From positions 1-64,000 of IMG/VR virus record IMGVR_UViG_3300040807_001487: DNA of 64,000 nt; one strand, written 5' to 3'. Shown piece after piece: positions 14,785 through 64,000 of the stretch (position 1 is the stretch's first letter; each line of letters starts with the position of its first letter). Origin of the DNA: a virus. A program made the position numbers and the translations under genes. Below the pieces are notes generated by a model that saw nothing but the letters and a program-made list of their open reading frames with translations, did no database searches and was not told the origin of the DNA.

Positions 14785-14795
14785 AAGGAAATACT

Positions 14796-19373: not shown

Positions 19374-19374
19374 A

Positions 19375-21033: not shown

Positions 21034-22142
21034 ATATACTTTACATAGGTCATTTTAAAGAAGGAAGCGGCTGGTCACATGCAGCAATTAATAATGTTTT
21101 AGCACTAAATACAGTTGGGCAAAATGTTATCTGTAGAAATATTCAACTGACCAACTCCAATAAATTAACAAACGAGAAGGTCATTGAATGTCTTAGCAAA
21201 CCAATAAAAGATATAGATGTGTGTGTACAGCATGTTTTGCCACATCACTTTGTTGGTACTAGTATGTTCAAGAATATTGCTTACTATGACGGCGAAATAA
21301 GCACCATCAAGCATTTACCTTGGTTCTATTCTTTGAGTTTGGCAGATAGTGTTTGGGTTGCATGTCAAACAAATAAAACCAATCTTGACAAAGATGGCCT
21401 AAAGAATGTCAAAGTAATACCGCACTGTTTTGATGTAAAAAAATATAACACGGAAAAAACAGTAGAAATGAACAATGGCACTAAGGGCCACTTTAAATTT
21501 TACACTATTTCTGACCTAAACGACAGAAAGAATTTAGAATCTATCATTAAATGTTTTCATAGCGAATTCAAATCTTATGAGCCAGTAGAGCTAGTATTAA
21601 AACTTAATCAGATAAACGTTCCGGCGAACGTAACAAGAAACGTCATAGCAGAAAAAATTAACAACATAAAACAGCGGCTTAGAATATATCCAGACATGAA
21701 CTCTTACAAAAATGAAATTGTAATGTGCGATTATTTGAGCAATGAAGACATGATTAATCTTCATAAGTCGTGCGATTGTTTTATTCTACCTTCTCACGGG
21801 GAAGGATTTTCAATGCCATCTTTTGAAGCTATGTGTTACGGAAACACTCCGATATGTAGCAACGATGGTGGCCCTAAAGATTTTATAGACCAACACAACA
21901 AAGACACTGGGTATCTTGTTGACGGAGTGTACGATGTGTGCGATAGTTCAAACGCAGCGTTTAAAGACATAAATACCGGACTTGAGGAATGGTTTCACCC
22001 AAGCGAATCTGATATTAAAAATGCTATGAGATTCTATTACGAGAATAGAACAAAAATTAACAGAGAGTCTGGCAAAATTGCAGCAGAAAAATTCAGTCTT
22101 GAAAATATTGGAAATCTAATGTTGGAGAAAATTAATGAGTAA
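21030..22142 (+). CDS. Glycosyltransferase family 4-like protein
   Basis: The 370-residue protein is a second GT-B enzyme, beginning MNILYIGHFKEGSGWSHAAI and carrying the GT4 signature LPSHGEGFSMPSFEAMCYGN (residues 251-270) followed by GGPKDFI. It overlaps the preceding GT4 gene by four bases. The two are clearly diverged, so they probably act on successive steps or different sugars rather than being a recent duplication. Confidence 0.87.
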   Translation: MNILYIGHFKEGSGWSHAAINNVLALNTVGQNVICRNIQLTNSNKLTNEKVIECLSKPIKDIDVCVQHVLPHHFVGTSMFKNIAYYDGEISTIKHLPWFYSLSLADSVWVACQTNKTNLDKDGLKNVKVIPHCFDVKKYNTEKTVEMNNGTKGHFKFYTISDLNDRKNLESIIKCFHSEFKSYEPVELVLKLNQINVPANVTRNVIAEKINNIKQRLRIYPDMNSYKNEIVMCDYLSNEDMINLHKSCDCFILPSHGEGFSMPSFEAMCYGNTPICSNDGGPKDFIDQHNKDTGYLVDGVYDVCDSSNAAFKDINTGLEEWFHPSESDIKNAMRFYYENRTKINRESGKIAAEKFSLENIGNLMLEKINE

Positions 22143-36373: not shown

Positions 36374-37033
36374 TTAAAATCCTCCACCGCCGCCACTGCT
36401 GCCGTTTTCATCAGATGGGGCTTCGTCAATATCTGTATTTGGATCTTGAGTAAATGCGCCGCTTGAAATACTTGTTTGAAATACATAATAATCAGAGTAT
36501 GGATCTAAGTACTTTGTAGCTACTTTAAAGTTTTCTGCATAGTCTACTTTAATAACGCCAAAGCTTCCGGGAGCATAATGTATATAAGGATTAAAAGCTG
36601 GGGTGTCGTAAAGACCCTTCGTGATAGCATTTTTTCTTGTTTCATTTGCATTTGATAAAGCGTCATTACTGTAAGGAAAAGAAAATTCCTTTGGCTCTAA
36701 AAAAGAATTACTTTCTATATACTCAGAAAATGAATCACCAGAAGGAGAAATAATAGCGTCATTATTTAAGAGGCTATATTTATCTGTATCATGCTTCCAA
36801 GTTGATGCGTCTATGTGTACAGCTGGATCTGATGTTTTGTTTGTAAATTCTTGAAAATGTGATTCCCCAGAAGGATACAATACTGCGCTTACATACTCTT
36901 CTTGGTTTAGCGTTTCAGTAAAGTCATGCTTGTTGATAACTCTAGGGCCAGTATAGCCAGTACTAGTCCTATCAATGTCTTCATATTTGTTGAATTTATT
37001 TAACGAGTTTGGATCTGGAGGATTTCTTGCCAT
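36374..37033 (-). CDS. Small virion protein with glycine tail
   Basis: The 219-residue protein is polar and rich in N, S, D, Y and P, with two PSG(E/D) motifs (LYPSGESHFQEF, ISPSGDSFSEY), and ends GSSGGGGGF, a flexible tail. It is flanked by one- and two-base gaps, so it is certainly part of the tail operon. The content suggests a connector or spike accessory protein. No family recognised. Confidence 0.5.
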   Translation of the reverse strand: MARNPPDPNSLNKFNKYEDIDRTSTGYTGPRVINKHDFTETLNQEEYVSAVLYPSGESHFQEFTNKTSDPAVHIDASTWKHDTDKYSLLNNDAIISPSGDSFSEYIESNSFLEPKEFSFPYSNDALSNANETRKNAITKGLYDTPAFNPYIHYAPGSFGVIKVDYAENFKVATKYLDPYSDYYVFQTSISSGAFTQDPNTDIDEAPSDENGSSGGGGGF

Positions 37034-38790
37034 TATGTTTGTCCTGTAATTGGCTCAGGGGTAGTCGAGCTAGAAGGCGTAGGATTGCGAGAATCTTCTA
37101 ATTCATAAACCCAAGATAAATTCAAGCTATATCTACCTTCTTTCGGGGTCCAATTTTCTGTCGGTGGATTAAGAAAACACTTTCTTAGTGCTGGTTCAGA
37201 CATGGGGCTTAATTCCTTAACTAGACCATTAATTTGACTTCTGGTTGGTTCGTTCAAAGACGGCTTAGAAAGAATAAGCTTTTTCCTGATGTTAGCGCCG
37301 GTGTTATTTCCATAGTCTATATCCGTGTAATCAAAAACTAATTCTATTGATATATCTCTACGATATTCTGTTCTGCCACCAATGTATTGTAGAACTGGCC
37401 CAGTTGGTCTTCCTATTACTGGTATCAATGCGTATAAATCTCCCGGATATGTATCATTAACACTGATAACTTCAGATATTGCTTCAGTCACCACGTTTTG
37501 AGGTCTGTTATCAAATTGAATATTGTAAGTGATTTCACCGGCAAATTTATCTTCTGACAAACCAATTGAAAGAGGTTGTGGATTTAATCCCGGCTGAACT
37601 ATACTATTAGCTCGTCTGTAAAGGTGAGAATTTATTCCAAATACGCCTGTATTAGAAACTTCGTGATATTTCTTGAGTGCGTTTTCGTAAGGTCTTGCTA
37701 AATTTCTGTCGTCATCACCTCCGTAAAAAGTTCCACTGGGGCTAATTGATGAGACACCCTTGATAGTTCCATTTAATGTAACTCCAACGTATGGACTGTC
37801 ATTAGAGCTAGATATTGAAGCAGAATAATTTTCAAAAGCTGTCCCGCTACACATCAACCAAGTGTCGGTAATGTTAACAACGCCAGCTGTTTTGTCTATG
37901 TTCTCTACTCTGAAATGGTTGTATCCACCAAAACTATCAGAAAGACCTATAACGTCTGGTGCAAAAGAGGAATATTTTACCATTCCCGGATAATCTTCAA
38001 CAGCATTTGTTAGTATACTTTTTCTTGCAAAGTTTTTTGCTTCACTCCACGCTTCGTATTTTACAAATCCTTCATCACCATCTTCGTAATACGATCTACC
38101 AGTAATGCTAACATCTCTAGTTATCCTATAAGATTTAGGTGTGACAATTTCATCATAATTAGTACCAGTAACTCCTAGTGATTCGTCTACTTCAATAGAC
38201 CAAGATTCCGACATGTCAGAAATAATGCCACCAAAACCTTCTCTAATTGTACTTATACTTGAACTAATATTTGAACCAGTAAAAGATTTATTATCATCAG
38301 TAGTCTCTATCAAAGCGGCCATAACGTCGCCATCGTGTACCCCATCGCCGTCATCCATCATGAAGTCTGCTTCAAAAGTAGCAGTGTAACGACACGTATT
38401 GACGAAGACGCCATCTTCAAAATTTAAAGACTGTAACTTGGCGTAAAATCTAGTGTCTGGAACTTGACTACCATCTGTATTATTAATTTCAAATCTTAAT
38501 ACTGGCGCTGAAAATAAACCTCTTAACTCCTGTTGTTTAGAAATAATTGTATAAGCTGCGTCTTTGTCTTCTACAGAGCTTGAAGTTCCAGCGTTTGAAT
38601 TAGTGCCGCCATAAGTACCACCATTGTCAATTATTGTTCCAGTTAGGGTGATCGTGTACCGACCACCAAAAGTTCCCATAGAGTTACGAAGAGACTCTCT
38701 CTGGATACCAATAAGTGGGGTTGGTCTAATATAACAAGGGTTGGTTGAAGCGGATTCTTTGAATATCTGTAATATTTTATTATCGGCCAT
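37033..38790 (-). CDS. Tail protein, 585 residues
   Basis: The protein is beta-rich, with an N-terminus IRPTPLIGIQRESLRNSMGT followed by GGRYTITLTGTII that resembles ring-forming tail proteins located at the distal end of the tube. A repeated style of strand (KSYRITRDVSITGRSYYEDG) occurs in the middle. It lies between the giant protein and the hub-like genes. The distal-tail or baseplate role is inferred from position and composition. Confidence 0.5.
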   Translation of the reverse strand: MADNKILQIFKESASTNPCYIRPTPLIGIQRESLRNSMGTFGGRYTITLTGTIIDNGGTYGGTNSNAGTSSSVEDKDAAYTIISKQQELRGLFSAPVLRFEINNTDGSQVPDTRFYAKLQSLNFEDGVFVNTCRYTATFEADFMMDDGDGVHDGDVMAALIETTDDNKSFTGSNISSSISTIREGFGGIISDMSESWSIEVDESLGVTGTNYDEIVTPKSYRITRDVSITGRSYYEDGDEGFVKYEAWSEAKNFARKSILTNAVEDYPGMVKYSSFAPDVIGLSDSFGGYNHFRVENIDKTAGVVNITDTWLMCSGTAFENYSASISSSNDSPYVGVTLNGTIKGVSSISPSGTFYGGDDDRNLARPYENALKKYHEVSNTGVFGINSHLYRRANSIVQPGLNPQPLSIGLSEDKFAGEITYNIQFDNRPQNVVTEAISEVISVNDTYPGDLYALIPVIGRPTGPVLQYIGGRTEYRRDISIELVFDYTDIDYGNNTGANIRKKLILSKPSLNEPTRSQINGLVKELSPMSEPALRKCFLNPPTENWTPKEGRYSLNLSWVYELEDSRNPTPSSSTTPEPITGQT

Positions 38791-38791
38791 A

Positions 38792-41700
38792 TTAATATCC
38801 TCTTGTACGTAGATTCATTTCGCCAACATTTTGACCAACACCGCTAGCGAATAGCCACAATTGGCCGCTACTTTCAATTGGTGCAGATTCTAATTCAAGT
38901 ACCAAATTCAAGCCAGATTCTTGCACAATTCCATCCACTCCAAAATTGTATAGTCCTAACTTATTATACACATTTGCCGAATCTGCGGCGTTTGAATAGA
39001 GATTCATTATTCCAGAGGCTTCATCTGGCCTACCCTCAACTGCAAGCCTGAGAGCGTTAGTATGTATTTTACCAGCCAATATAACACCGTCTACCGACTT
39101 GATAAACGGTCTGTGTTGTATGAATCCATATTCTGAGGGGTCTTGACCAGAAACTTCTATAAATATTTCACCTCTTGGATTAGTAAATATTATACCGCTG
39201 GCAGTATTGGCCTGTGCGTCGTCTTCAGTATTTGAAATATTAAACAGTATTTCATTTTCTTGAACGCCGCTGTGGCCAAACAGCCTTCCTGAAATATAAG
39301 CTTCGCTAGAACGAGTTGCTGGCTGTGGTCTTCTGAGCATTAAGTCATACGTATAACCAGCGCCATGATCTGGCTTGTAAACATCTTCGTCGGTGAATGG
39401 GTGATTTTTGCTACCAATAGCAACTGTATAATCTGCGTCAGTTCTTCTTCGCCTTGCAACAGATACAGATTCTCCAAAATGAGAATTTTCAGATCCAGAT
39501 ATGCTAATCAATTCCAGATCAACATAATCATATGTTTTTTGTTTATGAGAATTATAGCCTTGTGGAGAAATCTTCTCTAGCTTATGCCAGTATTTCTCTC
39601 TTTGTATAAAGTCATAATCTTCTGAGTATAGATAAACAGCGCCATTGTTTAATATTCCGAGTCCGCTATTTGGAAGTTCTGATCTTACACCAGAAGTTCC
39701 TAGATCGTAAACAGTTCTTGTTCTGTAATCAAATGCGTTGCCAAACGCTTTGTTCATGAACAATCCAACCCGTGGATCTTCTTCAACAAAGTTCTGGAAA
39801 TCATGACCGGGAGCGCCAATAGCTAATATGCCACCGTTTACATCTATATCATAACCAAACCTATCTGTAAATCTACTTTCTGGAAGATCATTAAACAGAT
39901 CGTATTCATTTATTCCGAGTTCTTCTGGTCTATTGCACACATTTACGTCTGTGTAATCCTGACCAACATTAATACTGTCTGGTCTGAACTTCCTGATGTA
40001 CTGCCAAGCAGTGGCCTGTTCTCTAATTGGGCTAACACCATTATTATTGTTTTCAAATAGATAGACAGCACCCGCTCCACCAAACGCACTTAGTGTAACC
40101 CCGGAAGGAGTTTCATACTGCACTGTATTAGAAATTTGATCCCATTTTACAATTCCGCTTTCTTGGTGATAAGCACTAAATGGAGCGCCAACAAACAATC
40201 TATTACCTTGTAGTTTAACGCTATAGCCAAATAGATCGCCGGGATATCCTTCTGGGAATTGTTCAAAATCTAAGAAGTCGTATCCCTTTGCTTTATAAAG
40301 CGAAAGATTATCGCCATACGGAATACCATCAATAATTCCACTAAATTGACTTGAGAAATTTTCATGTAAACCGCTAGCAAAAATGTTTATCATTTGCTGC
40401 TTTACTTTTTCTGTGTCTTCAATTGGTGGGGCGTCTTCACACTCCCAGACATACTTTGGTCTATGTACATATTCTGGATCATATTCAGATTCATTTCCAA
40501 CAAAGTCACTCATTGGCAATCTAGTAACATTGTTATTATTTGGATTGAACCTAGAAATCAAACCAGCATGACCAGCAGCACTATACCACTTATATGGACT
40601 TCCTCTTTCTGGAGAAATAATCTTATTTCTTATTGAGTAAACCTTGCCATTATTAAGCACAGAGCTAAAGTCTGTAGTCGGGTATAGTGATGACACAAAC
40701 TCAGATAGTCTAGGACTATATACTCCATTTTCATCAAGTATTCCGCTACCTTGTAACATGCTGGCGTCACTGATAACAGTAATTCTAGACCTGTTAAAAC
40801 CAGCCAAGAACGGTGAGAAAATTTCTATTTCTTGAGCTACAACCACTGGGCCATCTATAGTCTTAATTTCATTGCCAGATAAATACTGAGCTTGCCATCC
40901 ACTCTGTGGCTTACCACCTCTATAATTTAGAGCAACATCGAAATCGTCTAAGCAGCCATCGGCAGTTTGATCTGGACAATACTTGTAATGATTAGACCCA
41001 AGTTCTCGTAGGGGTGGTTGAATTATAATTTCTTGCTCTGGAGTTCCGGGTATAACAACCTGCACGTCTTCAAACACATCCTTAAAGCCCTTAACTTCTA
41101 TAATTGGAACAGCATAGCCAGAAGCAAAAGCCATCTTTGCAGTATATGGTAATGAGTCTGATTCATTTAGTGGTAAAAGTTTGGTATCATTTGATGTAAT
41201 GTAAATATCAACTTGATTTGACCAAGGATAAAAAGGACCAAGATTAATTTCGGCATAGGATGTTGTAAGTTTTTTCTTAACTATCTCTCCGATCTCTTCT
41301 GTAAATATTTCTGTATATTCAGAGTTAATATCACTCTGCCCATATGCAGTAATTTTATTTGGCTCAATGAGTTCACCAGTTACGGGATCTTTTTGTCCAC
41401 GATAAATTTTATTTAGATTCTTAGCGTAAATTGATATAGTAGAGTCAGACTCGATTGGGCTTTGTACATACCATCCAGTTTTAATAAAGTATCCAGAATC
41501 TTGTGTTGGTAGCTCAAAGGAGACTTTAGCAAACCCAGAATTATTATAATGGTAATTTATATTTGTTCTGTTTATATCTCTTACACTATTGTCGCCATAG
41601 GCTGTAAAGAACTCTCCAATGATCGAGGCAACCCTAGTTGCTCCGTTTAGCTCAATTGGTATGATGAGAGTTTCTTTAAAGGTTGAAAAATCTGGTCTTT

Positions 41701-44700
41701 GAAACACTTTTGGTTTTTCAGAATAAAACTTAAAGTTTTGTAATTTCTCTGAATTAGTAATAAACGAATGGTATGTATTCTGGTTAAAATCTGGTGGAAA
41801 AATAGTATTTCTATTTACGCCGTCTGGAGTATAACTATCACGACCAAGCTCTGCATATTTTCCAGCACCATTTAAATATAGAGGCTTCATAGACAATCCT
41901 AGCTTTTCACAAAGCTTAGATGTTTGATCAGCAACTATTTGAGATGGAATTTTTTCATTAATATTACTTAGTTCTGAATCGTGTGCGTAAGTAATAATAA
42001 GTTTCTTGTTGCCCTTTCTTAGCCATGTCTTTAATTGCTCTAGTTCTGTGTCACTTGGTAGATGCTTAGTGTTTGCAATCCAGCAGACATCGTAATTTGA
42101 ATATGACTTTCCTGCACGACCATTTAATAATTCATCTGAAGTGATATCTAAGTCTATGTTCTGAATGTGATAGAACAAGCTATTTGTAGCTATTAAGCCA
42201 TCTTCAGAACCAGCAGAATTTTTCTTGTAGATAAAGCTGTCGTGATAACCGTCAACAAAAGAAGATCTATTTGTCCAGCCTCCAAGCTGTGCTACGTTGA
42301 TATCATCTGCCGCAAAGTCAATAGTATCAGAATCAAATTCTTGACTATTCTTTGTTAGCAAATTGCGGTAGAATAAAATAGCATCATCATCGCCTGTAAA
42401 CAACACTTCTTGAGACTCAGAGGTTACACAGGAAATAAGTACAATTGATGAAGTGTTCTCTTCTGAGAATTTCTCTTCGGCAACAACATTTGTAAACTCA
42501 GAAGCTAAAACATTCTCGATAACATCGTCAACAAACTTTGAGTTCTTGCCTTGTAAAATAAATGCCCTGTCTGTATCTTCTGGTTTGAAGAATTCTCCAC
42601 CATCCGTCCACAATTCGTCTCCGTAATTAAGCGTTGGCTCTCCTATATAATTACCGCTATATTCAGTTGAGCCAGCTACTGCATCCCAATTAAAAACACT
42701 GTTTGAATAGTTAGTGCTAAGTCTTAATGTGTTTTGTGTTGGATCTGGCTCTTGTCCCACAACTTGTTTAATAATAGAGATTTGATCTTCTGTCGCTGGT
42801 ATGATAGCAGTAAACGACGGTGACTGTTCACCAACTGATAGCAATGGAACTGGTGGAACGTCTTGATTTTTGGCAGACCAGTGGCATGTCTTTGGATCTT
42901 TATAACAAGGTTGGCCCTTATCGCAAAGGGGTTCTGTTAAACCGGGCAATAGTCCATAAGCAACTGGTATATTTCTTGGAACCCTGTGGAACTGTTGAAG
43001 TAAGTCTTGACACCATTCATACCACTGGGCGCGTAAATCGCCTTGGTGTTTAATGGGCTGTTCACATCCAACATTAGCTGTATCATAAGAGTATTCTAAA
43101 TTGTCCAGTGGGCTTATAAAGCCCCCACATGCGTGATGATACTGAGCCATAGAAGGATCATAGAACCTGATGTCACCAACACCAGAAGCAAAAAGATAAG
43201 GGGTTTTTACATTAGTTTTGATACTTCCCTCTGGGATTCTTGCTGGAACAACGTTTGTGTCTAAAGTTGGGTTTATTTGTGCATAGAGATCATTTTTGGC
43301 TGGATATATTCTAACTCTAGATCCTAGAGCGTTGAGTATTTTATTAACAACACGGTTTGTTTCTTCATATAAACCGTCAGACTCAAAGAGAGGATCATCA
43401 CCAACTAATACTAAATTTCTGTCACCATAAGATAACCACTTCTTAAGATTGTCTAACACCTCGTTGCTTAAAGAGTCTTGAGAAGGTGACAAGATAAATA
43501 GTAGACCAGCATCGTCTGGAATTTCTGGATCTACGAAACTCGTCTTGACGAATGGAATATTATTGTTGTTTTCAAATATGCCAGAAACAACATTGAATTC
43601 TGATGTTCTTATATCATTCGCCACGGCTTCTGGAGCATGATATAGTTCGTGAGCATTTCCAAAAATTCCATATTCAACTACCTTGTTATGTGGATAATAT
43701 TTTCTGCCACTAAACACTTGAACAGCTCCAGCGTTTACATAAGAAGACCAAGTTCCTTCATGATCTGCCGACTCTATAGTGTTAGTTTGTAGATGAGACT
43801 CTGAATCATAAGGAGATTGATATCCACCAAGAGTAAACTGACCAAGAGCATTCTTTTCTTCGTCGCACTCTCTGCTGTTTCTATACCAAACATTTGTGTC
43901 ATCCCACTGGTTCATGCTATCAGTTGGACAACCAATAGCTAATATTGTTCCATCTTCATTTAGATCTATCGAATAACCAACTCTTGGGTGGCCAGCAAAA
44001 TTACTTGGATAGAAATCATATGTTCCGTAGCGATTATAGTCGTTGTGGTAGCTGAAGGTTTCTTTGTACTTGTCATTTAGAGACGACTTACGAGAGACAT
44101 AATTCAAAAATTCAAATCTATACTTTGCGGTCAATAGATCGTAAACTTTGCTAGCAGCACCAGCATCATTAAATCCTTCTTCTTTAAATTCTTGTAATTG
44201 TCTATACAGTAAAGTATAAGTAGATATCGCGTTTCCTTCTAGTAACAATTCTTCTTCTGCCTTGTGTATTAACCAACTTTCCATGTTACTGGATATCATT
44301 GGCAAATCATTTGTTCTAGAAAGTTCATAAACTGTTGCTCCACGGAAATCGCTATATGGAGAACCTATAGCAATATTTTCCATGTTATCACTTATGGCAA
44401 CGCTAAAGCCAAAACCTTCATTGGGAGAATATTCGTTATAATTATTTAAATCTAACCCAAACTGTTGTGTTATGTACCATTCAGACCCGTCGTTGTCGTA
44501 CAGTAAGCCAGAGCTATATGGTTGTTTTTCAAATAAATACGCTCTACCACCGCTTGGTGGCAATGAATTAAATCGGTAGTCTTCTTCACCGTAGAATAAT
44601 CCAAAGCCAGAAGCAAACAGATCTAGATTAGTATCAATGTTTTCGTCCGAAAGTGTATACTCTATATTTTGTTGCGCGATTGATATCCAGTCTTCTTGAG

Positions 44701-47700
44701 AAGAACGATCAAACTCTACATCTAAAACAACGCCACTGTATGGAACATTGTCCCAAGATAGTAACCCGTTGTTATAAGAATACGATGGGTATGAACCAAG
44801 GAAATCATCAAGGCCGGGAACAATTCTACGCCCACAGCTTGCGCTTTCGTCAACCATGATACCAATAAAGGCTGGGAGATTATTATTTCTAATAGCAGAA
44901 TTCAGTGGATATATCTGATTAAATATATTTGTGACTTCTTGCTCTATTCTGCTACTTGCTACCGCAACATCCTCATCTCTTAACAGTCTAGTTATTTCAT
45001 AGCGATGAATAAAATCAGAATCATTTTCATATTCTTGGAATTCGTGGAATGGAACATTTTTGTTTGGCTCAAGAACGATTACATCTACGTCAACTTGGAA
45101 TGCTGGCTCGGAGAATAGGGCAAAGTAATCATTACGGTCTTTAATCAATGAACCCAAGATCTTTTTAGCAGAAACTATTTTATTGTTCACTATCTTGGTA
45201 AAACCAGAAAACTCGTCTGTAACAATAATCACTGCTACCTTAATTGGAGATGTTACTATTTGGTCGAACGTTCTGTCAAATGTACCCCGTGGCGCACCAA
45301 CAAGTACCATTTCTTTGCCAGAGGTTTCATCTACAGCAATATCTACTGCGTGTCCAAACTTTCGTCCGTAGTTACCAATATCCCACTCTTTAACTGGCGA
45401 ATTAACGCCTTGAATGTTCTTGTATGTTAGATTAAAGTAATCTCTATGGAAGCCAGATGGCAAAGTTAATATTTCTTCTAGGCTCCATCCAGATTTATCA
45501 TCTTGATCAGACCAATCATACCCACTTGGTGCTGGCAATCTTCTGTATAAGAAAACTGCTCCAGATTTATCTAGCTGTTTTGTGTCTTCGTACAACGTGT
45601 ATTCTGGCGCACCAATTGCTAGTAGATCACCACGCGTAACGATATCTTTACCATACTTTGCATGTAGCGCAAATGGGTCTTCACTAAATAGTTTAATGCC
45701 GCTAAAGTTTACTTCTGAATTACTACCATATTCTACTGTGTCAATAACTCTTGGTAATTCAACTTCTTGGTTTGATCCAGCATATCCCAACATATTAACA
45801 ATATATGGATATGATGGAATAAGTCCACCGTACTTTCTTGCTCCATAATAATTCTTGTCGTAGCCAACATCAATATTTGTGTACGTATCTTTAGCTCTGA
45901 TTACGCCACCAGTATGGCAGTCATCTGAAGTCCAGTTTATCTCATGCGTGTTTATGTCTGGGTTGGTGCATAATCCAGTAACATCACAGTCGCCATAACA
46001 AATCGTTACAACGCCTCGTATTTCATCATCAGAACTAACTGATAAATATTTATCATCTGTAACAACAACGGCAGAACCAATGTTTTCTCCGTTCCACTGA
46101 ATAATTTGTTGCTGAGTATAACTTATATCAAATGCTGGATAATTAATTGTATAAAGATTGAGCGAAGCCTGTTCTGAGTTTGGTGGGATGGGTTCATAGA
46201 AATTTGTTAGATTAAACGTCTTAGCAGTTGCCGAAAATACGTCCCTCTTATATAGCATCAAATTCATAGCAGAAGAAGAAAGTCTACCGGAGTCAATAAA
46301 GTTCGCAACGTCTACTCTGAAATTAATAGAGTTGTCTATATTCTTCTTATTCCTAGTGCTACTAAACGATGTTAGCTTTAATGTATCCTCATAAGATGGA
46401 ACAACTTCGTCATTGTAAAGATTTAAGTTAAATAACTCTACTTCTCCACCGCCGATGGTACTTAAGAAGAATCCAAAGTCTCCATCTGCTCCAAACAAAG
46501 TCTCGTTTTGGTATTGTCCAAAATTGCCAAAATTATCAACAGATTGATGACCAAGTGAATACAAGTTCATTTCTGCTTCTGGCCACAGCCCACCAGAAGC
46601 AATAAGGTTCATGTCGCCTGACGCAACTTCTGGAAAATACCCATCAACAAAAAGTACTAAGCCTGAAGGGACTCCAACGCTAACATCCTGATGACCTAAA
46701 ACATTTAGATTAAGATCACCAAGTACTGTATAATCTCCGCTTGTTGACAATAAAAGTTCTTGATTGGTAGACGGTAGATGTCTTAAGCAATCTTTAAGTC
46801 TAATTTCTGCTGCATGTATTCTGATCGTAGAATCAAACGCAGAACCAGATGGGTAAACCACATCATACTGCAAGAACATGTCATTAATGTCTGAAGAATA
46901 ATACTTATGATCAAACTCTTTGATGATATGCTCTTTGCTTGTGTTGAAAACTGACCAAGGTTCAGATTCATCAAGCAAACTATCTTTATTGAACAAGCTT
47001 GAGATTTTTGTAATACATCCACTTGGGGCTAAGTAGTGAATATCTCTGTTGATTAAGCCAAGAGACTTATCAGCGCCGTCATATGACGGAACTAATGATT
47101 GAGCATATAGACTAACAATAAGTTTTGGTCCAACTTTGCCATCGTCCCAAACAATCCGATCATCTGTAATGTGTTCAATAACACTATCAACACTAACAGC
47201 TTTTTCTGTAAAATTATAGCCTCTTGGTAAATTCTTCCTAATCCTTGGGGCGGCTGCGTAGAACTTGCCGGAAGTTTCTGGAACATCTTCTATATTAAAT
47301 CTTAAGAAGTCATTTTCTATTTGCGTGTGATAAGCAAGACCGCTTGCGTTAAGCGTTGCTGGCATATCAATATCTGTTCTGGAGCTATATGGCAAACCAT
47401 CATGTATTAGATGGTGTTCAATGAAGTCTTTATCGTTCCTGTAAGACAATCTATCAAAGTCATCATTGAAGTGACAATTCTTGAAAGCTCCAAGCTTCCA
47501 GTTATTAGAAATATCACTATCGATGTAATCCCAAAACTTATCTTTACTAGATCTACTATCGATCATTCTCATGCTAGAAAATAAATCTTCAACTCCACCA
47601 TATTCTTTTTTGTCAACAATTATATTACTTGACGTTATTGCTCTATCTGAAAATCCTAACTCAGTAATAAAGCCAGCAAATCCAACGCCAGACCCAGAAG

Positions 47701-50700
47701 AGTATCCAACAGTAACATTTTGATCTGTAGTAATTTTTGTGAATGGCTCTGAAACGCCACGCAAAGTATTGGTATCAAAATTTGAAGGAAGTTGACGTTC
47801 GTTGTCTGCGTATAGCCTCAGTCTGTTGTCTGAAGAATCGTATGTTAACAAAACAGAAAGCGGGAATGACCAAAATACTGGACTTAAAATACCTGAGTCA
47901 ATAACTTTAATAATATTACCAAGATCATCAGAAGCATATCCACATAACAGTCCGTCGCTATAGCCAATTGCGAATTCTAAATCTTCACCAGAGTTGTACT
48001 TAGAAACAATAACACTGTCTGTGAAAACATTATTGTTTGAGTCAAGAATTTCATCTGGAGAAAATCTAACGAATGCAGAAAAGTCACCAGAAGGTGCAGA
48101 GTTTGTATTATCAAAACTTAAGTGTTTGGCGACACCAGAAACTCTTACAGCAGCATCAAAGGCGTCTCTAATCTTGTAATACGAAGGATGAAAGCTAAAG
48201 TTGTGCCAGTTGATAGATCGATAGCCCAGTGATTGATTGTCATATATTGTATTGCTATTAAATCTCCATCCTAGATTTCTGTATATGTCATTCTGTGAAA
48301 TTCCAACAAAAACGCCAGATAAGTTTTCTCTACGAGAATCAAATACAGCATCATTGTTATAATTTAAGAAGTTATAGTGGCCGCTTGGGAAGGGTGTTTC
48401 GTTATAATCTTTAAAGAATGAAAAGTCAAACTCAAGATTAAAGTCATGGCCAAAAGTATTGCCAGAAATGCCCCTCCATCTTCTTGATAGATTTTCTGGA
48501 ATTAGGAAGTTATAGCCGTCGAGCAAATTGTAAGCGTGTGGTATTTCTGAATTATCTATGTTGTGATTAAAGGCAACGTCTGTATTTTCTTCGTGAGGTA
48601 TAATCCTCAGTGGCATGTTTGAATAGACAAGTTCTTGGTCTTGCGGAGCGCCAAATGTGTGTAGGTGTATTGCGTTCTGGGGAGCGTAATGAACTTCTAG
48701 TCTAATGTCAGAAATTTCTGCTCCAGAAGGAATTGGATAAATATCTAGATATAAGTGTTCAAAATACGGGCTTGAATTAAACTTCTTGTTTGGCCCAAGC
48801 TCTGGCTCAAGTTCATAGATCTTTAGTGGTATTCTGTATTCTTGGAATAGTGTAGAATTAATTACTGGCGTCTGCGTCAAAATGTAGTGGTCGCCACCGC
48901 TGTTTGCTATGCTGTAACTATACTCTACCGTGTCTGATTTGTCCGATAAGGCTTCAGATGATATACCAAGCTCATCTGTAGGAATAATACTTGAAGATAT
49001 AACATTTTGATTAACTAAAAGGCCACCTTCGACGTTCTGTAAAAACCCTCCTTCGTGATCTGTTACGAATAATATCTTGTCGTCGCTATACCCAACAACA
49101 TCTAGTGCATAGTCTCTAGACGATGGAGCTTTTCTAGCCTTAACAATAAGATCAACTTTTACAATGTCTGCATAATATGCGTCATCTATGTTTGTTGATA
49201 TATAACGAGATCTGTCAAAGCTAACATTAAAAGGACCACCAGCAAAATCTCTACCTTGATAGAAGCTAGTAGTGGTTTGTCTCTTGTCTTCAAATTTAAC
49301 TATTAACTTTCCAGAATCAACAATTGTTGAATCGTGTAAATTAATCCATGTTGAAAGTGATCTATCTGAAATTTGTTTGCCAAGATAAAGTCCGCTAGCA
49401 ATATTCTGTGTTAAGTTTGATATAATAAGACTGTCGGGGTACGATGAGTCAGATTGCCAAGTTGTGTCAACGCTTGGATATATATCCGTGTCGAAGTTGT
49501 ATGGCATAACCCTTGTTGGGAAAATATGCTTAACAATCTTCTGGCCTTCAGTTTGCACCTCTGTTGCAAAAGGCATATAATGTTCTACGAACGGAGCAAA
49601 ATCCAGCGGCTGTCTTGGGTAGCCACTGTTGCATATTTCAATAGCAGAAATTCTAAGATTATAAGTTGGACTAAAAGCGGATTGGGTTTGGGTAGAAAGC
49701 GGGGTTCCGTCTAAGGCTAGATAATCATTAGGACCATCCGTTACTGGAACTAAATGATCAGTACTACAAACAAACTCTTCGTAGCCAACATTAAAACCTT
49801 TATCAAAAGGATCATCTAAACATAATACTTCAACATCAAAACTTAACTTATAACCATTTCCATCTTCGTAAACTGGAAATCCGTTTTCCCATTCGTACAA
49901 AGCTCCATTATTAATTTCAGGCTCAGTGATATAAGTTGTATAATTTTTATCTATTATTGCAGATTCATAATCGGCATCACCACGGAATGAAAGATCTTTA
50001 TACTGAACCATCAAATCGCCAGAAGGATCTTCTAGCTTAATATTAGTAATGTTAACTTCTGGAGAAGTGTTAGATCCATAATTGCGAAGCGGAACAGCGG
50101 CCCTCATGAAAAGGAAGCTATTCTTAGTCTTAATAAGTGCTGGATTTACTGCGCACTCGTAAAAGAAAGAACCTTCAGTTGCAATAGAAGATGGCTGTAT
50201 GTATGTTGAGTTTATGTCATCTATTCTTTGGCTTACGCTACCGTGCTGCGTATAGTTACCAGTGAATACGCCCTCGTCTATGCTGGAGAATATGTTTGAA
50301 CTCTGAATGTTTTCATTGACAAAGCCAACATTAGATATATCACCAGAAGGATATAATTTTTGCTGTGCAACAAAGTTCTTGATTTTTCTTAAAGAGGCAA
50401 ACTGTCCAGCGAACTTATCGACATAAGAATTCTTGAATTTAGAATTAGACTTCAACCTTGATCTAATATGAAGTTCTGGTATTTGCGTTGTGGCTTTTAT
50501 TTTACCAGCTTTTTCACATGGGAATTTACTGGGAACCATTTCAGAGTTTGCAAAAGCTCTAATCTTAGAAGATGAGCATATGCGGGTTTTTGCGCCCAGC
50601 ATGATACCATTGGCTGGACGCAATGAACCTTCACCGCACACTCTAGGAGTAAGGGAGCGAACACCTGCGACGGTCGCCCGTATATTACTAGTTCCACATA

Positions 50701-50743
50701 TTCTTATTTTGTGATATTTGTCACATAGACATTTGATTGACAT
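38792..50743 (-). CDS. Giant 3983-residue virion adhesin with seven FG-GAP repeats
   Basis: This single uninterrupted 12-kb gene encodes a protein with, in order: a cysteine-bearing N-terminus with repeated IRICGTSNIRA-like units; beta-rich regions; a LamG/concanavalin-like part (about 740-1060); a series of short [LM]NL-x3-G units (about 1338-1500); and four FG-GAP (integrin-alpha-type) repeats near residues 1695, 1795, 2108 and 2250. A vWA-like segment (about 1830-2050) interrupts repeat 2. After a long insert with two related alpha/beta segments (about 2406-2450 and 2881-2924), three more FG-GAP repeats follow near 3505, 3630 and 3755, and the protein ends with more [LM]NL units. Signature strings include FGYSVKLQGNRLFVGAP and FGYDIDVNGGILAIGAP. 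It lies just after the tape measure, so it is a tail-tip or side fibre protein likely to bind host surface. Confidence 0.8.
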   Translation of the reverse strand: MSIKCLCDKYHKIRICGTSNIRATVAGVRSLTPRVCGEGSLRPANGIMLGAKTRICSSSKIRAFANSEMVPSKFPCEKAGKIKATTQIPELHIRSRLKSNSKFKNSYVDKFAGQFASLRKIKNFVAQQKLYPSGDISNVGFVNENIQSSNIFSSIDEGVFTGNYTQHGSVSQRIDDINSTYIQPSSIATEGSFFYECAVNPALIKTKNSFLFMRAAVPLRNYGSNTSPEVNITNIKLEDPSGDLMVQYKDLSFRGDADYESAIIDKNYTTYITEPEINNGALYEWENGFPVYEDGNGYKLSFDVEVLCLDDPFDKGFNVGYEEFVCSTDHLVPVTDGPNDYLALDGTPLSTQTQSAFSPTYNLRISAIEICNSGYPRQPLDFAPFVEHYMPFATEVQTEGQKIVKHIFPTRVMPYNFDTDIYPSVDTTWQSDSSYPDSLIISNLTQNIASGLYLGKQISDRSLSTWINLHDSTIVDSGKLIVKFEDKRQTTTSFYQGRDFAGGPFNVSFDRSRYISTNIDDAYYADIVKVDLIVKARKAPSSRDYALDVVGYSDDKILFVTDHEGGFLQNVEGGLLVNQNVISSSIIPTDELGISSEALSDKSDTVEYSYSIANSGGDHYILTQTPVINSTLFQEYRIPLKIYELEPELGPNKKFNSSPYFEHLYLDIYPIPSGAEISDIRLEVHYAPQNAIHLHTFGAPQDQELVYSNMPLRIIPHEENTDVAFNHNIDNSEIPHAYNLLDGYNFLIPENLSRRWRGISGNTFGHDFNLEFDFSFFKDYNETPFPSGHYNFLNYNNDAVFDSRRENLSGVFVGISQNDIYRNLGWRFNSNTIYDNQSLGYRSINWHNFSFHPSYYKIRDAFDAAVRVSGVAKHLSFDNTNSAPSGDFSAFVRFSPDEILDSNNNVFTDSVIVSKYNSGEDLEFAIGYSDGLLCGYASDDLGNIIKVIDSGILSPVFWSFPLSVLLTYDSSDNRLRLYADNERQLPSNFDTNTLRGVSEPFTKITTDQNVTVGYSSGSGVGFAGFITELGFSDRAITSSNIIVDKKEYGGVEDLFSSMRMIDSRSSKDKFWDYIDSDISNNWKLGAFKNCHFNDDFDRLSYRNDKDFIEHHLIHDGLPYSSRTDIDMPATLNASGLAYHTQIENDFLRFNIEDVPETSGKFYAAAPRIRKNLPRGYNFTEKAVSVDSVIEHITDDRIVWDDGKVGPKLIVSLYAQSLVPSYDGADKSLGLINRDIHYLAPSGCITKISSLFNKDSLLDESEPWSVFNTSKEHIIKEFDHKYYSSDINDMFLQYDVVYPSGSAFDSTIRIHAAEIRLKDCLRHLPSTNQELLLSTSGDYTVLGDLNLNVLGHQDVSVGVPSGLVLFVDGYFPEVASGDMNLIASGGLWPEAEMNLYSLGHQSVDNFGNFGQYQNETLFGADGDFGFFLSTIGGGEVELFNLNLYNDEVVPSYEDTLKLTSFSSTRNKKNIDNSINFRVDVANFIDSGRLSSSAMNLMLYKRDVFSATAKTFNLTNFYEPIPPNSEQASLNLYTINYPAFDISYTQQQIIQWNGENIGSAVVVTDDKYLSVSSDDEIRGVVTICYGDCDVTGLCTNPDINTHEINWTSDDCHTGGVIRAKDTYTNIDVGYDKNYYGARKYGGLIPSYPYIVNMLGYAGSNQEVELPRVIDTVEYGSNSEVNFSGIKLFSEDPFALHAKYGKDIVTRGDLLAIGAPEYTLYEDTKQLDKSGAVFLYRRLPAPSGYDWSDQDDKSGWSLEEILTLPSGFHRDYFNLTYKNIQGVNSPVKEWDIGNYGRKFGHAVDIAVDETSGKEMVLVGAPRGTFDRTFDQIVTSPIKVAVIIVTDEFSGFTKIVNNKIVSAKKILGSLIKDRNDYFALFSEPAFQVDVDVIVLEPNKNVPFHEFQEYENDSDFIHRYEITRLLRDEDVAVASSRIEQEVTNIFNQIYPLNSAIRNNNLPAFIGIMVDESASCGRRIVPGLDDFLGSYPSYSYNNGLLSWDNVPYSGVVLDVEFDRSSQEDWISIAQQNIEYTLSDENIDTNLDLFASGFGLFYGEEDYRFNSLPPSGGRAYLFEKQPYSSGLLYDNDGSEWYITQQFGLDLNNYNEYSPNEGFGFSVAISDNMENIAIGSPYSDFRGATVYELSRTNDLPMISSNMESWLIHKAEEELLLEGNAISTYTLLYRQLQEFKEEGFNDAGAASKVYDLLTAKYRFEFLNYVSRKSSLNDKYKETFSYHNDYNRYGTYDFYPSNFAGHPRVGYSIDLNEDGTILAIGCPTDSMNQWDDTNVWYRNSRECDEEKNALGQFTLGGYQSPYDSESHLQTNTIESADHEGTWSSYVNAGAVQVFSGRKYYPHNKVVEYGIFGNAHELYHAPEAVANDIRTSEFNVVSGIFENNNNIPFVKTSFVDPEIPDDAGLLFILSPSQDSLSNEVLDNLKKWLSYGDRNLVLVGDDPLFESDGLYEETNRVVNKILNALGSRVRIYPAKNDLYAQINPTLDTNVVPARIPEGSIKTNVKTPYLFASGVGDIRFYDPSMAQYHHACGGFISPLDNLEYSYDTANVGCEQPIKHQGDLRAQWYEWCQDLLQQFHRVPRNIPVAYGLLPGLTEPLCDKGQPCYKDPKTCHWSAKNQDVPPVPLLSVGEQSPSFTAIIPATEDQISIIKQVVGQEPDPTQNTLRLSTNYSNSVFNWDAVAGSTEYSGNYIGEPTLNYGDELWTDGGEFFKPEDTDRAFILQGKNSKFVDDVIENVLASEFTNVVAEEKFSEENTSSIVLISCVTSESQEVLFTGDDDAILFYRNLLTKNSQEFDSDTIDFAADDINVAQLGGWTNRSSFVDGYHDSFIYKKNSAGSEDGLIATNSLFYHIQNIDLDITSDELLNGRAGKSYSNYDVCWIANTKHLPSDTELEQLKTWLRKGNKKLIITYAHDSELSNINEKIPSQIVADQTSKLCEKLGLSMKPLYLNGAGKYAELGRDSYTPDGVNRNTIFPPDFNQNTYHSFITNSEKLQNFKFYSEKPKVFQRPDFSTFKETLIIPIELNGATRVASIIGEFFTAYGDNSVRDINRTNINYHYNNSGFAKVSFELPTQDSGYFIKTGWYVQSPIESDSTISIYAKNLNKIYRGQKDPVTGELIEPNKITAYGQSDINSEYTEIFTEEIGEIVKKKLTTSYAEINLGPFYPWSNQVDIYITSNDTKLLPLNESDSLPYTAKMAFASGYAVPIIEVKGFKDVFEDVQVVIPGTPEQEIIIQPPLRELGSNHYKYCPDQTADGCLDDFDVALNYRGGKPQSGWQAQYLSGNEIKTIDGPVVVAQEIEIFSPFLAGFNRSRITVISDASMLQGSGILDENGVYSPRLSEFVSSLYPTTDFSSVLNNGKVYSIRNKIISPERGSPYKWYSAAGHAGLISRFNPNNNNVTRLPMSDFVGNESEYDPEYVHRPKYVWECEDAPPIEDTEKVKQQMINIFASGLHENFSSQFSGIIDGIPYGDNLSLYKAKGYDFLDFEQFPEGYPGDLFGYSVKLQGNRLFVGAPFSAYHQESGIVKWDQISNTVQYETPSGVTLSAFGGAGAVYLFENNNNGVSPIREQATAWQYIRKFRPDSINVGQDYTDVNVCNRPEELGINEYDLFNDLPESRFTDRFGYDIDVNGGILAIGAPGHDFQNFVEEDPRVGLFMNKAFGNAFDYRTRTVYDLGTSGVRSELPNSGLGILNNGAVYLYSEDYDFIQREKYWHKLEKISPQGYNSHKQKTYDYVDLELISISGSENSHFGESVSVARRRRTDADYTVAIGSKNHPFTDEDVYKPDHGAGYTYDLMLRRPQPATRSSEAYISGRLFGHSGVQENEILFNISNTEDDAQANTASGIIFTNPRGEIFIEVSGQDPSEYGFIQHRPFIKSVDGVILAGKIHTNALRLAVEGRPDEASGIMNLYSNAADSANVYNKLGLYNFGVDGIVQESGLNLVLELESAPIESSGQLWLFASGVGQNVGEMNLRTRGY

Positions 50744-50754
50744 ACATAGTCCTG

Positions 50755-53700
50755 TTAACTAAGTGTTGATCCTGTCCCCGGTTTTAATTTTCCATTTGGT
50801 CCAACTGTAGCATTTTCTATGGCTTCGTGAATTAACGGTTTAACATTGTCTAATATAAACTGGGGCATATTTTGTAATAGTTGGTTAGCATTTAAAGTAA
50901 CGACCATGTTAGTTGTATCAAGCTTAAGCGTTGGGTTGAAGTTGACAAACTTTTCTACACTCTGACTAAATGTATTCATAGAATTATTTACAGCGCTAAG
51001 ATCTGTAGCATCAAAACGAAAGTCATATCTTGGTGCTGGTTGGTCAGTTCTTTTTGGATATGTAACTTTGTGCCTTAAAGGGGTTTCTTTTTGTAGCCTG
51101 TCACGTTGTTCCATCTTGCGCATTTCATTATAATTTTCTAATGCTTTTCTGTTTTTTTGTTCTTCTGTTTGAAGAGATCTGTCAATATTTTGATCTACTG
51201 CATTCTTCGCATTGATGTAAACATCCTGAGCTTCAATTACTTGATTTTGAGCTAATCTCTGCTGTAACGTTCCAGCGTCTATTAGTATTTGAGCGGCTTG
51301 GCGAATATTGGAAGCTGCGGCATTAAGCTCTGGCGTAGTTTCGGAGCCAAGCTGCGCACCTCGTACAGCTAAGTTTGAATCTACACCTCTAGCTGTAAGA
51401 GCGGCAATTCTTGTTCTTTCTTCTAGTCCTCCCGGTCCAGATATTTTCTGACCTTGGAATTCGTCAATACCAGCATCACGTAACCCCTTAAGGAAGGAAA
51501 CGCCTTCAGCTAATGCGCCTCCACCAAACTGAGTTGCTAAATCGCCACGACCAAGAGCGACTGCTCCAACGGCTCCCTCTGCGGCCTGTTTCTTGAAGAA
51601 CGATTCAACGTCTCCGCTTATCAAACTATCTAATGAATCTTTCTCTAGTTGGCTCTTTCTCTTTATTATTTCATACTCTTGTTTTCTGATGTCAATTAAA
51701 GCCCTTGCTTGAGCAACGGTTTCATTTGTAATTTCAGCCAGTCTTTTTTGTGCATCTCTTGACTGTAATTCACCTTCTCCAGCAGCTTCTTGTTCTGAAA
51801 GTATAGCCGATGTAGCTTCAATATTTTTGATTCTGTTTGCAAAACCGTCTAAACTCGCATTAACTTTTGGCAAACTAGCAACTAATCCAACATTCATTTT
51901 TGCGGTAAGGTTTGCTAACTTATCAGCGGACGTAACAAATTTGCCACCGTACTGTGATTGTATCTGAGCGGCCTCCATCTCAATAGAAAGGGCTTGAGTT
52001 TGTGCTGCGTATAATTTATTTTCAGCATCTATTCTTTTTTGCAAAGCTTTATTGAGATCTTTTTCGCTTTCAACAACTTGCTTAATAGATGGTGCTAATT
52101 GGTTTATAAACTCAGAACTAATTTCACCAAGAGCATTCTGAAAACCGCTAATGTCGCCTTGCTCAAATGCTTTCGTTAAAGCTTCCGATGGGGGATTGTC
52201 TCTAAAACTGCTAACAATCTGACTAGCAACTGTTTTGTCAACATCCATACCGCCAAGTTTGTCTGATAATGTCTTTGCTATTTTTTCTTGAGCGGCTTGT
52301 AATGATCCAGTTGATTTAAGATCTTCGAAATTTGTGGGTTCCAATTCAGATATATAGTCAGCTAATATGTTCTGAGTAGCTCTCCCGGCTTGTAATTTTT
52401 TCTGAGTTTCAGATATGGTTTTCTGTGTTGCTCCATACTCTTTGAGAGTTTTACTTACACTTTCAAGAGAACTCTCAAAATCAGAGTCACTAATATTTGA
52501 GCCAGTAGAAGACAGAGCTGCACTTAGTGTATTGAACGATCTTTCTAGCTGTGTACTAGATCCGTCTACTGCTGATAGATAGTTTTTTAAGGCAACGTTG
52601 GAAGCTACGACGTTAGCATTGAACGGGCTAAGTCCGAGATTTATTAATTCAAATCTTTTCTTTAATCTTTCTATTTCAGACCCAATATTCGTCAAACCCC
52701 TAGCTAGTTCTAATGCTTGTTCCGTTGGTAGGGATGTGATCAACTTCTTGAGAGATGGCGATAATTGATCAGACGATTGTACTACACTGTTTAAATTATT
52801 TACTAACGCTGTAGTGCTATTTTTGACTGTGTTTTCTAGGCTTGTTCTAGTTTCACTTAATAATCTTTCTCTGTCTTGTTCTTGGGTTTGTTCTAAAATT
52901 CTACCAAGACCCAAATCTTCTTGTTGTAAATTTCTTTGGGCAATATCTCTTGATTTAAGTAAAGTTTGACTAAACCCAGAAGAGAACTGCCCTCCAATAG
53001 CAGCAGATCTAAAGCTTTGGTTTATAAATTGCGTTGAAGCCTTAATAGCCTTGGCTTGACTTTGATATAAATCAACAAGCTCAGATATTGGATCTTTTAA
53101 ACTAACTAAAAAACTACTGACTTCACCAGCTTTAAGTCCAGCGCTTTCTAGCTCTTTCTTAAGAAGAGAGTTAGCCTTTTCAACTGATGAAAAATTAGAT
53201 GCATCTTCGAAAAAATCTGAACTAGCAACATCCCCTTTTCTAAGTCGGTCTATCTGACTCCCAACATTTTCTAAAGTAAAGAAGCTTGGCCCTACAGTTT
53301 TTTGATTTTCTTTAATAACAGTATTAACAGTTTTAATTTGCTCTGAAATACTTTTTACCAAAGGTTCAAAAGCTCTTTCTCCAGCACCACTAAAATCGCC
53401 AGAAACTTTCGCCTCTTGAAAAGCACTATCCGCCCTCTCTGAAGCTTCTTGTAAAGCTTTTGTAAAATTCTGAGTTGCTATTCTGGAAGCTGTTTGAGCT
53501 TTTACTTGATCTGCTGTTGCGTAACCAAAATTAGAAAGAAAATTTTGAAAAGTATCAGCACCAGCCTCTAAGCCAACAGTCAATGCTGTTGCGGCGACGG
53601 CAGCTGCTCCAATACCGGCAATCGCAGCGGTTACTGGGTTTGTAAAAGCCAGCGCAAAACCACCGCCAGCGGCAAGACCTAAACCAGTAGCAACTGTTGA

Positions 53701-62425: not shown

Positions 62426-64000
62426 TTAACTCCCATCAACAATGTTGATATTTTTGTTTTGAAGCGCAAAAAATGCGGTTAAATATTCTGGAGTTGGAGA
62501 AGTAACTGATGCTGGGCCAAAATTAACATCAGTACCTGCTAACATAAATGAAGCTGTTGAACTCCAATCTACACATGTTGCAATAATATTTGTTTCATTA
62601 ACACTTGTGTTTTTGCAAAAATTTCTCATCTTTTCACTAAGCGTAGGTGGTAAAATCCATCCTGCAAAATTCTGATTGAAAGAGGTAGCGTTATTAAACA
62701 TTTCAGAACAATCATTTAAACTTCTAACGTTCCAAGAAGAAACTGAGTGATTAAATACTGAATTATTTTCAAACATGGATGCCATATTCGTACAAGAAGC
62801 TGTATTCCAAGAACTTATATCTTGATTGAATACTGAATCTTTAAACATTCCAAGCATAGTTCTGGGAATTGCCGTATTCCAAGAACTTATATCTTGATTG
62901 AAAAATTGATTTGAATCAAACATGTAATTTAAGTCTACAGCTGATGACATATCCCAGCTAGAAAGTGGCTGACTAAAAGCACAATTACGGAATGTAGAAT
63001 CAAAATTCCAACAACTAGAAACATCCCAAGAGCTTAAATCTTGATTATAGTTTGAATCACAGAAAGTATAAGCAAGTTCTTGTATATTGCTAGTATCCCA
63101 AGTTGATAAGTCTTGAGTAAAAATTTGATTGCCACAGAACAAGAAACTTAAATCTGTAAACCAAGATGGAATTGTTGATGGGACTGATTCTAAATATTTT
63201 AATTGATGATCATCATTTAAATATATATTTCTAATAGTAAGATCGTCTTCTGCAAGATCTACAAAAGAAGGAGTATTAATAGCGTAGCCCCAACTTATTA
63301 TATTTTGATAATACAATGATTGATTTGGATAATTATGAGCTGATGATGTAATAGAACTTGTTAAATCTGTAACAAGATTAGATAAAGTAATATAGTTATT
63401 TGAAGATATATTAACTGTTATAAGTTCTTGAGCTACATTAAGTAAAGAGGCAGATATCCTGTTATTAATAAAATCAATAGTACCTTGTCTCGCGTTTGAA
63501 GTATCAAAGTCTTTACGCATGTATACAAATCCACCATTTTTCGTAATAGAACTACTAGCAGTTGAAAGATATCCACCATTTGGATCTTGGAAAGAAACTG
63601 GTAAAGTTAAAAGTGGCTCCCAAGATAGATTGGCGGCTATAGTTTGATTTTTGCTTTGTGTATTGCCAGCTGAATCAGAACAAGTAATAAATACATTAGT
63701 GATATTAGAATCTTTGTAAGGGCCGTTATTTCTAAGATAAAGATTCATTTGGATAAGTGGCTTGTATACTTTATATACGTTGTATGTAAGTCCTAAACTG
63801 CTAGCTGTAGCTTCATCAATTTCTTCAACATATTCTAATGCAGTAACAACTTTTTTAATATCATTATTAAATGAAAATGATGTTACCTTAAATGAACCAT
63901 CTGGCTCTGGATATAAATCTGGAGCTGGAGTTGTAGTGGTGGTTGTTTGTGAGGCAAAATTCGGTAATAATCCATTGTCAGAAGTTTGAAGGCTAAATGT
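62426..64000 (-). CDS. BspA/DUF285 repeat protein, N-terminus outside the window
   Basis: The minus-strand frame is open through the right edge (no stop codon from 62426 to 64000), so the ATG at 63748 is probably internal and the protein is cut by the window. The extra 84 residues include a threonine-rich linker (QTTTTTTPAP). The last 300 residues carry about seven BspA/DUF285 repeats of 24 residues with the pattern F-N-Q-D-[LI]-S-S-W-[DN]-[TV]-S and a following M-x-x-M-F. Such repeats form solenoids on bacterial surface proteins and phage fibres. Two units share 29 identical bases. It is placed at the head-tail boundary and may be a whisker or adhesive fibre. Confidence 0.7.
   Translation of the reverse strand, partial: TFSLQTSDNGLLPNFASQTTTTTTPAPDLYPEPDGSFKVTSFSFNNDIKKVVTALEYVEEIDEATASSLGLTYNVYKVYKPLIQMNLYLRNNGPYKDSNITNVFITCSDSAGNTQSKNQTIAANLSWEPLLTLPVSFQDPNGGYLSTASSSITKNGGFVYMRKDFDTSNARQGTIDFINNRISASLLNVAQELITVNISSNNYITLSNLVTDLTSSITSSAHNYPNQSLYYQNIISWGYAINTPSFVDLAEDDLTIRNIYLNDDHQLKYLESVPSTIPSWFTDLSFLFCGNQIFTQDLSTWDTSNIQELAYTFCDSNYNQDLSSWDVSSCWNFDSTFRNCAFSQPLSSWDMSSAVDLNYMFDSNQFFNQDISSWNTAIPRTMLGMFKDSVFNQDISSWNTASCTNMASMFENNSVFNHSVSSWNVRSLNDCSEMFNNATSFNQNFAGWILPPTLSEKMRNFCKNTSVNETNIIATCVDWSSTASFMLAGTDVNFGPASVTSPTPEYLTAFFALQNKNINIVDGS
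62802..62902 (-). repeat. Two identical 29-base copies inside the DUF285 region
   Basis: Bases 62802-62830 and 62874-62902 are identical, 72 bases apart, which equals one 24-residue repeat unit. The other units are diverged at base level, so this pair is a recent duplication or gene conversion and a site for repeat-number change. Confidence 0.85.

Follow-up and report, generated by a model that had tools for sequence, protein, structure and literature searches.

The FG-GAP propeller is the ligand-binding core of integrins, and in the integrins with an I domain this domain is inserted in loop DA, which joins blades 2 and 3. Integrin blades are defined by an FG motif at the start of strand A and a GAP motif at the end of strand B (PMC8023676). 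Integrin-type propellers also exist in bacteria, including seven-repeat examples with a calcium motif in every blade (PMC3192720), and both these and the propellers of the VCBS superfamily have mostly been described as platforms for adhesion or ligand binding (PMC3192720, PMC8023676). FG-GAP propellers had been regarded as almost absent from viruses; in 2024 MntV1 was described as possibly the first virus with confirmed FG-GAP repeats (PMC11467894), and the BFVD matches of the protein described here include FG-GAP proteins from giant viruses of algae and amoebae. As in those viruses, the FG-GAP protein is virus-encoded, and theirs has been proposed to act in attachment, but they infect eukaryotes and their FG-GAP genes stand in a different context. 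No paper on a phage protein of this kind was found in the mostly open-access literature searched.

The DNA analysed (the window, 64,000 nucleotides) belongs to the virus record IMGVR_UViG_3300040807_001487, a contig of 64,284 bases, and encodes a giant protein (Table 1), residue r of which corresponds to window position 50743-3(r-1) and downwards. The minus-strand location of the gene is an addition to the original prediction, which was made from the letters alone. The gene starts 11 bases after the tape measure gene and is followed on its 3' side by genes for proteins of 585, 219 and 1527 residues, all of them in the tail module. The same order (tube-like, 348-aa, 284-aa, tape measure, giant, 585-aa, 1527-aa, 1153-aa) is conserved in the relatives as far as their contigs reach. 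A tail protein had been proposed, and the position of the gene, adjoining the tape measure, fits this.

Table 1. Features of the giant protein and of the genes next to it; positions are those of the window
Feature	Position	Strand	Basis or remark
Tape measure gene, directly upstream of the giant gene	50755..56586	-	PHROG tape measure families, best E 6e-24
Giant tail protein gene	38792..50743	-	one ORF, 3983 aa; similar-length homologs at same gene position
N-terminal module (residues 1-1588)	45980..50743	-	separate gene in one clade (L048, L050, L059)
Blade 1 / FG-GAP repeat (residues 1695-1735; strand D to ~1759)	45539..45661	-	repeat alignment, HMM, model
Blade 2 strands A, B (residues 1795-1822)	45278..45361	-	repeat alignment, HMM, model
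Alpha/beta insert, loop BC of blade 2 (residues 1832-2062, 231 residues)	44558..45250	-	model, pLDDT mostly 75-93
DESAS = [DE]x[ST]xS motif (residues 1965-1969)	44837..44851	-	homolog alignment
Blade 2 strands C, D (residues 2065-2096)	44456..44551	-	repeat alignment, model
Blade 3 strands A-C (residues 2110-2141)	44321..44416	-	PF14312 match, HMM, model
Blade 3 loop CD helical insert (residues 2146-2219; strand D at 2226-2232)	44087..44308	-	model
Blade 4 / FG-GAP repeat (residues 2252-2357)	43673..43990	-	repeat alignment, HMM, model
Large insert, loop DA after strand D of blade 4 (residues 2358-3495)	40259..43672	-	~1,140 aa; ~1000-1250 aa in all homologs
DUF4350/GldG-like alpha/beta module 1 (residues 2408-2478)	43310..43522	-	Pfam, model, hhalign
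DUF4350/GldG-like alpha/beta module 2, duplicate of module 1 (residues 2880-2953)	41885..42106	-	hhalign, Pfam
Blade 5 / FG-GAP repeat (residues 3503-3586)	39986..40237	-	repeat alignment, HMM, model
Blade 6 / FG-GAP repeat (residues 3627-3725)	39569..39865	-	repeat alignment, HMM, model
Blade 7 / FG-GAP repeat, GSK for GAP (residues 3753-3822)	39278..39487	-	repeat alignment, HMM, model
585-aa tail-module gene, directly downstream of the giant gene	37033..38790	-	syntenic in relatives

The seven FG-GAP segments originally proposed near residues 1695, 1795, 2108, 2250, 3505, 3630 and 3755 are all present, together with the GSK of repeat 7, the closing strand GGRAYLFEK (~2065-2073) and the strands IKVAVIIVTDEFSG and PAFIGIMVDESAS. 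Their assignment to FG-GAP is confirmed by the FG-GAP_2 profile PF14312, which matches the window protein in three stretches (E=3.8e-13; 49.8 bits, above the curated cut-off of 23) and both halves of the protein in 39/39 homologs; PF01839 gave no match, and the giant protein was assigned to no PHROGs family. Every one of the 39 non-redundant full-length homologs has all seven repeats, in the same 4+3 layout. Moreover, when an HMM was built from six repeats and used to search these 39 proteins of ~4000 aa for the seventh, the left-out repeat was recovered in each of the seven trials, in 11-39 of the 39 homologs (best E from 3.6e-5 to 3e-10), with only 0-2 matches outside the repeats across all the proteins. 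This recovery, with so few matches elsewhere, indicates that the seven related repeats are a fixed and complete set rather than a chance pattern. The phage protein hence has the seven sequential FG-GAP/Cage repeats by which integrin-type propellers are recognized. In repeat 7 the window protein, like many relatives, has lost the Pro of GAP, and the DxDxDG calcium motif of loop AB occurs in one of 273 repeats, being absent as a rule.

The structure was predicted with AlphaFold2, run separately on residues 1640-2830 and 2758-3880 with the 39 homologs. The two half-models have mean pLDDT values of 68 and 65 and pTM values of 0.49 and 0.43, with most blades and the blade-2 insert at pLDDT ~75-93 and the linkers low. 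Both show four strands (A-D) per blade, with FG at the start of strand A and GAP at the end of strand B, matching the integrin definition. In searches of PDB structures, the sole match of the N-terminal half at E<=1e-3 was integrin alpha-X (5es4_A; E 4.4e-6, 583 columns), other integrins appearing at E 0.06 and above over ~140-220 columns, and all 18 matches of the C-terminal half at the same threshold were integrin alpha heads (best E 1.5e-5). The half-models superpose on integrins with low TM-scores (0.04-0.21) and high rmsd, as would be expected of half a ring whose inserts are loosely placed, and the matches are read as blade-level likenesses, no proof of a ring. Sequence profile searches of the PDB put integrins on top for the first half (alpha-6, E 0.023; alpha-IIb, E 0.11; not significant alone) and gave no integrin match for the second. 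The ring region measures 2,112 aa in the window and 1,817 aa in the shortest case among the homologs, none of which has a short blade 4-5 insert. With seven repeats, four-stranded blades and integrin heads as the sole strong structural matches, the integrin-type propeller of the original prediction stands, and the seven repeats would close into one ring. The phage propeller is in the same superfamily as integrin heads; convergence, which had been preferred over relation, holds for the insert described below but not for the propeller.

The interruption of repeat 2, already suspected from the letters, is found in all homologs, where the insert is ~24-32% identical to that of the window. A confident alpha/beta fold is predicted for it, in the order beta, hairpin, alpha, beta, beta, alpha, beta ending in DESAS, alpha, short beta, alpha. 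The [DE]x[ST]xS motif is conserved in 39/39 homologs and in 117/119 of a wider, partly redundant set, both exceptions coming from the same contig. Its Asp has been replaced by Glu once, in one clade, and its first Ser is Thr in 9/39. An SGNH-type serine nucleophile, considered for this motif, is disfavoured because of this Ser to Thr exchange, and the possibility that the insert duplicates the DUF4350-like modules described below was rejected (hhalign 0.2-0.4%). That [DE]x[ST]xS is so strictly kept while the rest of the insert evolves fast points to it as the likeliest functional or binding site, perhaps a metal site. An earlier strand of the insert ends in (T)D, with Asp 1843 kept in 31/39 homologs and replaced by N, S or R in 8/39.

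The modelled insert is an alpha/beta domain with a MIDAS-like motif, but sequence comparisons did not identify it as a von Willebrand A (vWA) domain. Alignment by hhalign to 24 bacterial vWA domains gave 1.7% probability over 17 columns, with only the DxSxS strand aligned; this DxSxS-on-DxSxS alignment scores above column-shuffled controls, and circular permutation of the vWA profile brought no real gain. No vWA family, and no known domain for the insert, was found in the Pfam scan of the homologs, and a PDB profile search with the insert had no match. Besides, DxSxS lies at the end of a late strand in the insert, versus the first strand in the vWA MIDAS, and conservation does not extend to the rest of the MIDAS, no conserved MIDAS Thr being found in the insert of the 39 homologs.

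Two further inserts, both beyond the original prediction, are a helical one in repeat 3 and a much larger one of ~1,140 aa between repeats 4 and 5. Judging from profile comparisons, the large insert holds a duplicated alpha/beta module resembling DUF4350 and ABC_transp_aux (GldG) domains: the two copies match each other strongly (hhalign 96%, E 2.6e-9), whereas their Pfam matches to DUF4350 and ABC_transp_aux are weak, below the Pfam cut-offs.

The closest described architecture is the alpha head of the I-domain integrins (alpha-X, alpha-L), which shares with the phage protein the seven FG-GAP repeats, an alpha/beta domain inserted at blade 2 on the face of loops BC and DA, and a DxSxS-type motif within this insert, alpha-X being the best structural match of the phage N-terminal half. 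In an up-and-down blade, loops BC and DA are on one face; it follows, from topology rather than from a measured model, that the phage insert and the integrin I domain are on the same face. The proposal that the insert is placed as in integrins stands to this extent, but the phage insert comes after strand B and before strand C of blade 2 (loop BC), thus splitting repeat 2, and for this reason it is not at the integrin position, which is loop DA after the blade. Unlike integrins, the phage protein lacks the DxDxDG calcium sites, carries a further giant insert between blades 4 and 5, and has a blade-2 insert unrelated to vWA by sequence. With another loop used, DxDxDG missing and the vWA fold unsupported, it is no integrin alpha subunit. 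In the case of the bacterial integrin-type, FG-GAP_2 and VCBS propellers (PMC3192720, PMC8023676), the FG-GAP/Cage motif in seven repeats is shared and PF14312 scores above its curated value, but the phage propeller has no calcium motif and bears three large insertions.

In one clade (L048, L050 and L059) a break at residue ~1590, immediately ahead of blade 1, divides the giant gene in two (L048:14596, L050:14389 and L059:14503), with an ATGA overlap at the junction in L048 and L059. As the break comes before blade 1, all seven blades remain in one chain, and in this clade the propeller, inserts included, is a separate protein of 2,177-2,227 aa. It thus forms a unit of ~2,200-2,390 residues that can stand alone, which argues that the seven repeats work together. 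The N-terminal module has a weak Laminin_G_3 match in Pfam (residues 873-1041), and (S)G-x-MNLY-xx-G-like motifs recur both at residues ~1330-1530 and in the C-terminal stretch of the giant protein (residues 3889-3983; 38795-39079). One relative, L055:5033-21826, is a giant ORF whose N-terminus is longer by ~1,600 residues; it was suspected of joining a tape measure to the giant protein, but no such fusion was found, the extension matching neither tape measures nor other giants tested.

Besides one almost identical contig, first scans for relatives recovered one at 48% identity and several at 35%. An alignment-based scan found 56 IMG/VR loci plus three on MAG contigs; scanning with the propeller part alone gave the best 80 of 96 loci. 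Searches by tblastn with pieces of three family members against 50,697 phage records, and with one member against 72,556 plasmid records, had no match, and the 585-aa neighbour has no relative in the searched phage records. No cultured phage encoding the giant protein was found in the searched collection. These viruses are a large uncultivated group of phages, probably aquatic, in which the giant gene is a core tail gene. No sheath family was found in 13 incomplete records of up to 173 kb, so a non-contractile tail is likely; these would be long-tailed phages, probably without a contractile sheath. The three MAG relatives (L073, L074 and L075) come from the bins of SAR202, Verrucomicrobiales and Micavibrio genomes; their contigs may be viral DNA that was placed in those bins.

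The reading to which we lean, without great assurance, is that of a tail-tip adhesin built on an integrin-type seven-bladed propeller, whose ring presents inserted domains to a host-surface ligand. The giant protein would be a virion protein of the tail tip, whose C-terminal ~2,390 residues would fold into a single seven-bladed FG-GAP propeller of the integrin type. The blade-2 alpha/beta domain and the blade 4-5 assembly with its DUF4350/GldG-like modules would both project from one face of this ring, and a helical hairpin at blade 3 would hang from the other. Most probably the ring would serve as a rigid platform that offers the inserted domains to the ligand, the [DE]x[ST]xS site taking part in its binding, possibly via a metal ion. 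A purely structural role, in which the protein is a building block of the tail tip or baseplate, with propeller and inserts making contacts within the virion and other proteins binding the host, is unlikely, although as the chief alternative it deserves serious weight: the protein is very large and found in every member at the same place, sequence identity is fairly even along the chain with no obviously hypervariable tip, and to our knowledge no adhesin role has been reported for DUF4350/GldG-like modules. It is harder to reconcile with a motif so strictly kept in a fast-evolving insert, which suggests a binding site, and with the adhesion or ligand-binding functions mostly described for integrin-type and VCBS propellers (PMC3192720, PMC8023676). 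That the 4+3 blades form two separate structures, as the ~1,140 residues between repeats 4 and 5 could allow, is very improbable. The halves were indeed modelled apart, but every homolog has exactly seven repeats in the same layout, the gene split keeps them together, both halves match seven-bladed integrin heads, and we know of no three-bladed propellers.

A sharper version of the tail-tip adhesin, compatible with it, would make the blade-2 insert a true, possibly circularly permuted, vWA domain with a working MIDAS, as in alpha-I heads. The order beta-alpha-beta-beta-alpha-beta-(DxSxS)-alpha-beta-alpha fits a canonical or permuted vWA, the TD that ends the earlier strand (D in 31/39) could supply a second Asp, hhalign lays DxSxS on the vWA DxSxS strand above the shuffled controls, and alpha-X heads the PDB matches of the N-terminal half with far more columns (583) than other integrins (~140-220). 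We nonetheless find this version doubtful, given an hhalign probability of 1.7% over 17 columns that permutation does not really improve, no vWA domain besides alpha-X among the 50 structural matches listed for that half, no conserved MIDAS Thr, a second Asp that is N, S or R in 8/39, and the Glu in place of the motif Asp in one clade. Equally doubtful, in our view, is a complete analogue of the I-domain integrin head at the tail tip, with a closed ring and a (permuted) MIDAS domain in blade 2 providing a metal-dependent grip on the host, arisen independently of animal integrins. As in I-domain integrins, the added domain sits at blade 2 of the ring, by topology on the same face. Should the protein indeed bind hosts, it would be a phage adhesin of a new class, giving phages another means of holding bacteria, and it would test independently why blade 2 suits the hanging of a binding domain.

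The rest of the window contains other genes worth mentioning. A DNA polymerase III alpha-type polymerase is split on the plus strand into two genes, 14781-16355 (PHP and NTPase domain) and 17451-19010 (fingers), between which lie genes for an RNase T-type exonuclease (16345-17025) and an endonuclease VII-like protein (16979-17449). At 19336-22142 (plus strand) there is a pair of neighbouring glycosyltransferase genes from a single PHROG family. Finally, the structural region includes, at 62426-63748 on the minus strand, a gene for a 440-aa protein with DUF285 (BspA-like) repeats (E 3e-50).
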